Position numbers and translations under genes: made by a program. From positions 1 to 28,774 of the forward strand of contig JNET01034496.1 of NCBI GenBank assembly GCA_000697455.1: 28,774 nt of DNA, given 5' to 3'. This DNA comes from Basidiobolus heterosporus B8920. Taxonomy: Eukaryota > Basidiobolomycota > Basidiobolomycetes > Basidiobolales > Basidiobolaceae. Below, one piece after another: positions 15,894 to 19,309 of this stretch. The notes beneath the pieces are model-generated. The model was not told the DNA's origin. It saw only the letters and a program-made list of their open reading frames with translations, and ran no database searches. How positions within the stretch are numbered: the first letter of the stretch is position 1; the number at the start of each line of letters is the position of its first letter.

Positions 15894-18800
15894 CTATAAG
15901 ATCCCGTTAGAATAGTACTGGAAAGTGTCATAAAGACGGGTGAACACGTTGCAGCAACTGCTGATAATTAATTTTTCCAAGTATTCATCCACTTGAGCCT
16001 CAGTTAAAGAGAGCTGGAAACGATCACGTAGAGCAGCTACAGTAGACTCGCCAGTATTCGAGAAGCACGGAAGGCTCGAGTCTGGTTGGGGTGTTAGAGA
16101 TTACATATTATATACCTGAGATAGTATCAACCGTTACCTTTTTGCATGATCTCCACCAATAATATAATGTTATCGGCGAATTTACGGAGGGAAAGGAAAC
16201 CTTGCTTAAACAAGGCTTTGAATTCGGCAAATTTCTCGCTCTCAACACCTCCCAAAACATCCAAGTACTCTTGGGTTAACTTGAATGGAGCCATTTCAAA
16301 TCCGACAGAGCCGGGTGAATTAGACAGCATAAATCCAAAATCAATATCTAAATTCGATGTCAGTAGGATACGAGAAGCATTGAGCCTGGTACAAAAAATA
16401 CTAACGGATAAGATGGCCATCTGTTGCGAGAAGAACATTGCCGTTGTGCCTAGATTTCGGAGGCCGTTAGATTCGATCAGGATATAACGTAGTTAAATGA
16501 TTGGGTAGATGTCTACCTGTCCTTAAGGTGCAACACGTAGCAGACCAATGAATACCCAACCAGACTACGCATGAAATTATCTTGAGCACGTAGGAATTCT
16601 GGCGAGTCGGGTGTTCCAAATTTCTGGGGATAAGGGAAGCAGAATTATTGACGAGTCACTAATAAATGTGTATCGAATTCTCCAATACCTGAACGAAGTA
16701 GTCATACAAAGTGAACACGACTCCCTGCTGGTTCAGTCGCTTGGTGTAGCCTTCCTTTTTAAGAGAGTGTAACGAGATTGTGTTCCGGATAGTTTCGATA
16801 AATCCGGATGAGTCGGAGGTGACTAAGATACGGTAACTGTTTAAGGATAAGACTGGATTAGTATTTTTCAGTCAACATTACATATGCGTGAATCTGTCTC
16901 ACTATTTGACCCAGATATCAATATCTGCTTCCTTCCAGATTTTCTGCATCACAAGAATCAACTGGAGGGCAAGTTGCTCTTGTCTTAGATCACCACCAGT
17001 CTTGACGATGACGGGGAAGAGTTGCCAGTTGGGATGGCTACCGTATGGCGACGATGCGCGAATCCGTTCTTTTTTGGCATTCCAGTCTTCTTGTAATACA
17101 GCAGCTGGTTGTATAGAAAAAGATTAGACAATACTCGAAGATCGAAGATCAAATAAGTTAGAGTTACCGCTGGGGTCATCTTTGTGTTTGACGCTCTCTA
17201 AAATATCTCCGTCATCTTCTAAAGTTTCACCTCCTCCTCCTTCACCTCCATCGCCTCCAACTCCGCTACTGATGCCTTCGAGTTTCATTTTTGCAATTCT
17301 AGCCTCCTCTAAGGCCATCATTTTGTTGATGATCTTTTCCCGTATTAGATCGGTGGCTGTTTGATCTCTGCTTGAACTGGAGGTATCTGCAGCTTTTGCA
17401 TTAGACAATATACGGCTTGTTTCTCTCTTTTGTCGCTCCGTAAGTTGGGCAAGCATGACAGCAGCTGTACGCATGTGCTCAGCAAACCCATCGTCGGCAT
17501 TGGCACTACGGCGTGTGATGACTTTTTCGAAATACTCTTTGTTGGTCTTACAAGTATCAGGGCTAGGATGTGACGTCATCTTCTCAAACTCCGTGATATC
17601 TAAAGACTTGGCGCGTAGAATTGAAGTAGGGTTAAGTTCACTCCCTATCAATGGATTAGTTAACACGAGAAACCCAGCTAACGAAGCAGCTCACTAGAAG
17701 CATACCTGACTGAGCTAGCTCGCGGGAGGAGTCGGAGGAGTCTGAATCAGAGTCCGAATCGTTAGCCTCAGTCCGAGCGGGAGTCTCAGGCTTGTATTTG
17801 AGCAATATAGACTCGTCAAAGTCAGCATCCGTTTCAATGACCTCAACCATGATCAGATATGGAGCCTGAATATTGAAGCATCTTAGTGAATGTATCTATA
17901 GACACGAACACCAAGTTATTTACCTTCTCAGCTGAGTTCAGTACGACAGCGTCTGTCGGGGGAATACGCACAATTTTGTGATGGTATGGATTATCCGCAG
18001 TTGCCGGACACCACAAAGGTATGCACACATCAGCTGGCAGATTGTGGTTGAGCAGCGAAAGTTCGGCATGCAAAGAGCTAAGTATGAAAAGTTAAGGAGA
18101 ACTTCTACAGGCTGATACTCATAGTTGTAAGGGAGCATAAGGTAAATAAAGGATATTTCTTGCTTTTTTAGGCAGCATGCACAACCGATTCGATATATCG
18201 ACCAACGCTATGACAAACGACATTTCTGAATGGAAATAATGGCCGTCTATGAGTTGTTTGCGCCGTGAAGGCTCTGAACCAAGGAACAAATCGTATTCAA
18301 AGTCCGAATCAGCTTCTGGAACCGGTGAGGTAGCTTCAGAATATGACTCGGTCTCCCTTCTATCAAACGATCTCGAAGAAGAAAGGTTCAGCGTAGATAT
18401 ACGCTCGAAACTACGTCTACCAGCCGTGCTTTTTATGTAGTGGCCAAATGAAAAAGCCCTACCCTTGTGTAAGTCTTCTAACGTAGGAGAGGATGTGGGG
18501 ATACGAGAAGTGGTTGCAGGCAAACTAAGAGAAGGTGTACTTTGGTTTGGATTGTCAGTAGGTTCTGAATTAGCTTCCTTCTCCTGGGTCTCCAAGTTAT
18601 TCGTGGATGTCTTTTCATTCTCCTCTACCTGCTTAACAGGCGGATAAAAAGGCGCTCGTCTGCCTTGTTCGATAGCCATCTGTCCAGCACCTAAAGCAAA
18701 GGCCGGACTCACTATTCCCGCGAGAAGGGCACTCATCCCAACAAGTGCAGGGAAGGGATTCTCTCTTACTTTTGCCTTTCTTTTTGGTATCTCATTGTTG

Positions 18801-19309
18801 TCATCACAACCTTCAGTAAAGATTATGTTTTGAACTTGGCTGTGCATGCGCTTACATAATCTGTAAGAAGGAGAATGCGGAGTTGAAGAAAGATCAGACA
18901 TGTATGCCTGAAGATACCAAAAAGTCTAGAGAATATTAAGGTAAGAATGCAGTGACAAGTGTCTAGGTTATATGATGTATAAAGTACCAGGATTGCTAAA
19001 TGGGAAGAGATTTTGCACCGATCGAGCAAAAAGTTCTCTAGAGAAGCCGATTGTTCAGGGCGAGATATCAATAAATGGCTGTGGAAAAGAAGTAAGAGAG
19101 AAGTTCAAAATACATCAAAGGCGCATTAGCATATACCATATTTGCGGCAAGAAAAATTCGATTTCTGACAGAGGGAATTTCTTCAATTCGTTGCATAAGT
19201 AATGTTGAATACCAACAGAATCGGGGTATTTAAAGATGTAGGAGATTGCCAACCAAGATGTAAAGAATTCAGAGTTAAAAAGACGTAAAAGTAAAGAATT
19301 GGAAGTCAT
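15894..19309 (-). CDS. PIK1: phosphatidylinositol 4-kinase, Pik1/PI4K-beta type
   Basis: The enzyme makes PI4P at the Golgi for secretory traffic. Twelve exons are inferred: 19309-19137, 19078-18988, 18925-18157, 18081-17924, 17865-17706, 17644-17168, 17104-16903, 16836-16689, 16623-16517, 16449-16406, 16347-16138 and 16081-15894, giving 908 residues. The N-terminal lipid-kinase-unique region reads SLLLRLFNSEFF, GIQHYLCNELKKFP, EIEFFLPQICHLL. A fungal segment RENPFPALVG...AIEQGRR follows, then HAELSLLNHNLPADV and NSAEKAPYLIMVEV. The kinase has VIVKTGGDLRQE (Lys644), catalytic DRHNGN at 761-766 and HIDFG at 777-781, and ends LYDTFQYYSNGIL. A Ser/Asp run (exon 5) and a Gly/Glu-rich run (exon 6) look disordered. 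The intron between exons 3 and 4 is an apparent U12 AT-AC intron; the others are GT-AG. Identification is firm. Confidence 0.95.
18082..18156 (-). other. U12-type AT-AC intron in PIK1
   Basis: On the minus strand the intron starts ATATCCTTT (18156-18148), the full U12 AT-AC donor consensus. It contains TCCTTAAC (18098-18091), the U12 branch-site consensus, and ends CATAC at 18082, about 10 bases after the branch. The join is phase 1, gives ATT AGC TCT TTG CAT, and yields KKAR-ISSLHAELSLLN. Any GT donor further on is preceded by an in-frame TGA. Length is 75 nt. Confidence 0.88.

Follow-up and report, generated by a model that had tools for sequence, protein, structure and literature searches.

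One point of reference for minor (U12-type) introns in fungi is the survey 'Where the minor things are', reportedly by Larue and Roy. In PMC10639083 (2023), 249 minor introns are given for Basidiobolus meristosporus, making up 0.554% of its introns, the top density so far in fungi; the same paper lists 205 minor introns for Rhizophagus irregularis, for which all four minor small nuclear RNAs (snRNAs) are reported, and quotes U12-type intron numbers of about 20 for Phycomyces blakesleeanus and about 4 for Rhizopus oryzae. Both AT-AC and GT-AG introns of the U12 type are described for the latter two fungi in PMC2846911 (2010). Here we analyse a stretch of 28,774 nucleotides (nt) of Basidiobolus heterosporus B8920 (contig JNET01034496.1, positions 1 to 28,774, hereafter the window), which carries the PIK1 gene for phosphatidylinositol 4-kinase beta (PI4K beta). 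The third intron of this gene is read as a minor-class (U12-dependent) AT-AC spliceosomal intron with a probability of about 0.97. No paper linking PI4K beta or phosphatidylinositol 4-kinase to minor or U12-type introns was found in a search of the open-access literature.

Splicing Signals of the Third PIK1 Intron

The consensus of U12-type introns comprises the donor RTATCCTTT and a branch site TTCCTTRAY near the 3' end. The predicted intron and its flanking exons have the following features, with matches counted against this generally known consensus:

18082..18156, minus strand: predicted U12-type AT-AC intron, third of 11 in PIK1, 75 nt, phase 1
18148..18156, minus strand: 5' splice site ATATCCTTT, 9/9 to RTATCCTTT
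18091..18099, minus strand: predicted branch site CTCCTTAAC, 8/9 to TTCCTTRAY
18082..18083, minus strand: 3' splice site AC, end of the intron
18157..18925, minus strand: exon 3, 3' end ...PKKAR plus base 1 of the split codon
17924..18081, minus strand: exon 4, starts TT AGC TCT, completing ATT (I), followed by SSLHAELSLLN

The intron starts with ATATCCTTT and ends with CTCCTTAACTTTTCATAC / TTTTCATAC, and the likely branch A at 18092 lies 10 nt before its last base. Being in phase 1, it divides a codon as A|TT (isoleucine). A preliminary description of this locus had given the same coordinates and letters, the match of donor and branch site to the U12 consensus with a short distance from the branch A to the intron end, and the junction of KKAR to SSLHAELSLLN; re-reading of the sequence reproduced all of these, the junction passing through the split ATT. 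Folding of the 75-nt intron is unremarkable (z -1.05).

AT-AC termini by themselves leave the type of spliceosome open, and the ten remaining introns of PIK1 are all GT-AG (56 to 67 nt), so that removal of this intron by the major (U2) spliceosome, as a rare known subtype, has to be considered. U2-type AT-AC introns retain a U1-like donor and have no U12-type branch site. In the PIK1 intron, however, the donor runs on as ATATCCTTT, and 10 nt from the end lies a branch site almost identical to the U12 consensus; we regard excision by the major spliceosome as highly improbable.

Identity and Structure of the Gene

The gene model comprises 12 exons:

15894..19309, minus strand: PIK1 gene, coding region including introns, 12 exons, 908 amino acids (aa)
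19309-19137, 19078-18988, 18925-18157, 18081-17924, minus strand: exons 1-4
17865-17706, 17644-17168, 17104-16903, 16836-16689, minus strand: exons 5-8
16623-16517, 16449-16406, 16347-16138, 16081-15894, minus strand: exons 9-12

Searches of Pfam, structures and homologues used an 812-aa model of the protein without the first two exons. Domains PF00454 (PI3_PI4_kinase) and PF11522 (Pik1) exceeded their cut-offs, and the top structure matches were PI4K beta, with 8q6f and five more PI4K beta sequences ranking first. The rebuilt full-length protein is 89.7% identical to its counterpart in Basidiobolus ranarum and 89.4% identical to that of B. meristosporus; the near-equal distance to both makes a further species of the genus probable. 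The assignment of the gene to PIK1 is supported by sequence comparison and agrees with the gene named in the preliminary description; the intron boundaries and the U12 class given there are likewise supported. The early-diverging fungal host that it had proposed turned out to be a Basidiobolus. In the same window, the identity of ETF-ubiquinone oxidoreductase reaches 93% and 90% with two proteins of B. meristosporus and does not exceed 75% with any of the 118 remaining listed ones.

The site could in principle be decayed or misassembled, for instance a mutated donor in a pseudogene. However, PIK1 is open for 908 codons and matches two relatives along its whole length at approximately 89% identity, and the donor, the branch site and the 3' end look intact. 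The probability of such decay or misassembly appears negligible.

Exon Junction in Homologues and Alternative Splices

The region of the junction is ungapped in 152 of the 153 listed homologues that cover it, as the AT-AC splice predicts. In the first search, 119 of the best 120 of 841 matches aligned without gaps across 34 columns at the junction. A second search, with a Massospora query, added 34 homologues among the best 120 of 167 matches; one of them, P0241, is without the junction region, and all of the other 33 are ungapped. The sole gapped homologue among the 153 is P0200 of Massospora cicadina.

All splice pairs enclosing an intron of at least 20 nt inside 18320..17924 were enumerated and checked for retention of the flanking motifs ISNRLCMLPK and AELSLLNHNL. 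Among 16801 frame-consistent pairs, 7739 were open. The open pairs included seven GT-AG and seven GC-AG combinations, which could be taken in favour of a conventional intron with other boundaries whose U12 appearance arose by chance. None of these 14 pairs in 18320..17924, however, retains both motifs, and both the ungapped alignment of 152 of the 153 homologues and the absence of the composite U12 pattern from 8.6 Mb of shuffled sequence (see below) speak against such an intron, which we consider extremely improbable. Open AT-AC pairs numbered 63, and both motifs were retained in six of them, five of which lengthen the protein by 3 to 9 residues; the sixth, 18156/18082, gives the right length. 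When the length was also required to be correct, 26 pairs retained both motifs, and among these, termini of the GT-AG, GC-AG or AT-AC kind occur in 18156/18082 alone.

The unspliced reading past exon 3 ends at a TGA immediately before the first GT after the donor, at 18118. The in-frame TGA that had been predicted for the nearest GT donor is present, directly preceding this GT. The accompanying statement that only the AT-AC splice keeps the frame holds in substance; taken literally it fails, since the 14 GT-AG and GC-AG pairs are open as well.

If the general mechanism of minor splicing applies, the donor ATATCCTTT and the branch site CTCCTTAAC would be recognised jointly by U11 and U12, with U6atac then taking the place of U11 at the 5' splice site. 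Attack by the branch A (18092) and joining of the exons as A|TT would bring a conserved stretch of the protein, located upstream of its kinase domain, back into frame.

Other U12-Type Candidates in the Assembly

The assembly containing the window comprises 8.14 Mb in 428 contigs. It was searched with a strict AT-AC pattern, ATATCCTT-N40..70-TCCTTRAC-N6..14-AC, and a strict GT-AG pattern, GTATCCTT...AG, each controlled by its reversed version. The AT-AC pattern gave 13 matches, including the PIK1 intron, versus 0 for the reversed control; the GT-AG pattern gave 19 rows, corresponding to 16 distinct introns (three are alternative ends), versus 1. The window itself contains one match to the composite AT-AC pattern, and when it was shuffled 300 times at the dinucleotide level, neither strict pattern occurred in the resulting 8.6 Mb. 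The resulting 29 strict U12-class matches also argue against removal of the PIK1 intron by the major spliceosome. In the 12 other AT-AC candidates, the distance of the branch A is 11 nt in six and 5 to 15 nt in the rest, depending on the choice of the AC. The AT-AC share of the strict matches is 13/29, about half, a share that the strict donor pattern may bias.

Nine of the 28 other candidates were chosen by eye for recognisable proteins, and their spliced peptides were scanned against Pfam. In six of the nine, the junction falls within a domain above the cut-off:

L031: Arf
L036: Cpn60_TCP1
L014: ATP_bind_1
L026: La
L027: Alg6_Alg8
L017: BRCT

Because these six junctions lie within domains, at least some of the strict pattern matches are real introns.

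Search for Minor-Spliceosome Components

Several observations weigh against a minor-class intron in PIK1. Its assignment is based on sequence signals, reading frame, the junction at the protein level and further candidates in the assembly. The Pfam scan covers nine of the 28 other candidates, and in two of these nine the junction lies next to a domain or at its border (MyTH4, Syf1), while in one it falls in a sub-cut-off match (WD40-like). Searches of the 8.14 Mb assembly gave no match above the cut-off, neither to U12 snRNA (RF00007, E up to 0.001) nor to U6atac, U11 and U4atac (RF00619, RF00548 and RF00618, E up to 10) nor to the proteins 48K, 59K and 25K (PF05253, PF16021 and PF18036, E up to 1); only some of the first-look candidates of these searches were scored.

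The positive controls U2 and U4 were likewise missed in the assembly by the same kind of search (E up to 0.1), whereas U6 was recovered. Since the organism must have both U2 and U4, the failure to detect the minor machinery is uninformative and weighs little. Among the contigs behind L001 to L038, the shortest measures slightly more than 10 kb, which points to an omission of short contigs; the assembly is probably partial.

Several weak matches were obtained. The best of six for U6atac is U6 itself (78 bits), and the other five reach at most 14.1 bits. The only U4atac match, L039, is weak (18.5 bits), and a U12 snRNA pattern gave nine matches, for which the reversed control gave 13; re-scanning L039 and these nine with Rfam (E up to 1) recovered no snRNA and returned a single sub-cut-off match to SCARNA7. 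The PF18036 match is an ordinary ubiquitin-like protein. A weak similarity to PDCD7 (U11/U12-59K) was seen at 1504-1689 of L042 on the minus strand (17.2 versus a cut-off of 27 bits), and L040 holds a 48K-like match below the cut-off; PF05253 passes its own cut-off in one prokaryote control genome.

The U6 snRNA gene (1474-1592 of L001) is located between two tRNA genes, and its 3' part has extra bases relative to the Rfam consensus.

A Possible Counterpart in Massospora

The PIK1 protein of Massospora cicadina (P0200) carries a net insertion of 8 residues precisely at the junction. Here P0200 reads SRHILLLLFHGFSLQAEL (KASR-HILLLLFHGF-SLQAEL), whereas P0169 and P0187, the relatives closest to it among those listed, have SRQSSLQAEL. 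The residues H-I-L-L after R fit C|AT ATC CTT TTR, a phase 1 reading of the donor ATATCCTTT, and the unspliced Basidiobolus frame likewise reads R-N-I-L-Y at the donor. A signature of such a translated donor, [HNDY]IL[FLSYCW], written after the insert had been seen, matched 94 of the 152,230 positions in 154 homologues.

These data suggest that the insert of P0200 (residues 269-278) is an AT-AC donor read through in the annotation by a gene finder ignorant of AT-AC introns, and that an AT-AC intron at the same place may have gone unrecognised in Massospora. We lean towards the view that the PIK1 AT-AC intron arose before Basidiobolus and Entomophthorales diverged and is still removed by the minor spliceosome in M. 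cicadina. No paper joining minor introns to Entomophthorales, or the minor spliceosome to Massospora, was found in a search of the open-access literature, and the string 'Entomophthor' is absent from the main text of PMC10639083. If true, this protein-level hint would extend minor introns to the insect-pathogenic Entomophthorales, and translated donors at ungapped positions of annotated proteomes would provide a cheap route to overlooked minor introns.

Comparison with Known Minor Introns

The PIK1 intron shares its terminal dinucleotides with U2-type AT-AC introns, which differ from it by a U1-like donor and by having no U12-type branch site. As an AT-AC case well placed in a conserved gene, it is suited to testing minor splicing, and it points to minor splicing in a further species of Basidiobolus; it illustrates the class well but is not unexpected. 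The weight given to it in the preliminary description was too high, considering the 249 minor introns already reported for B. meristosporus in PMC10639083. The intron class and its abundance in Basidiobolus were already known, while the individual PIK1 intron in this species appears to be new.

The minor introns of B. meristosporus resemble it in genus and intron class, although the two fungi are different species whose PIK1 proteins are approximately 89% identical. Rhizophagus irregularis is likewise a fungus outside Ascomycota and Basidiomycota for which minor introns are reported, but it belongs to a distant lineage; its PIK1 (P0136) is ungapped at the junction, an alignment that at the protein level is silent on the presence of the intron. 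Phycomyces blakesleeanus and Rhizopus oryzae are early-diverging fungi that also have U12-type introns, in far smaller numbers than B. meristosporus.
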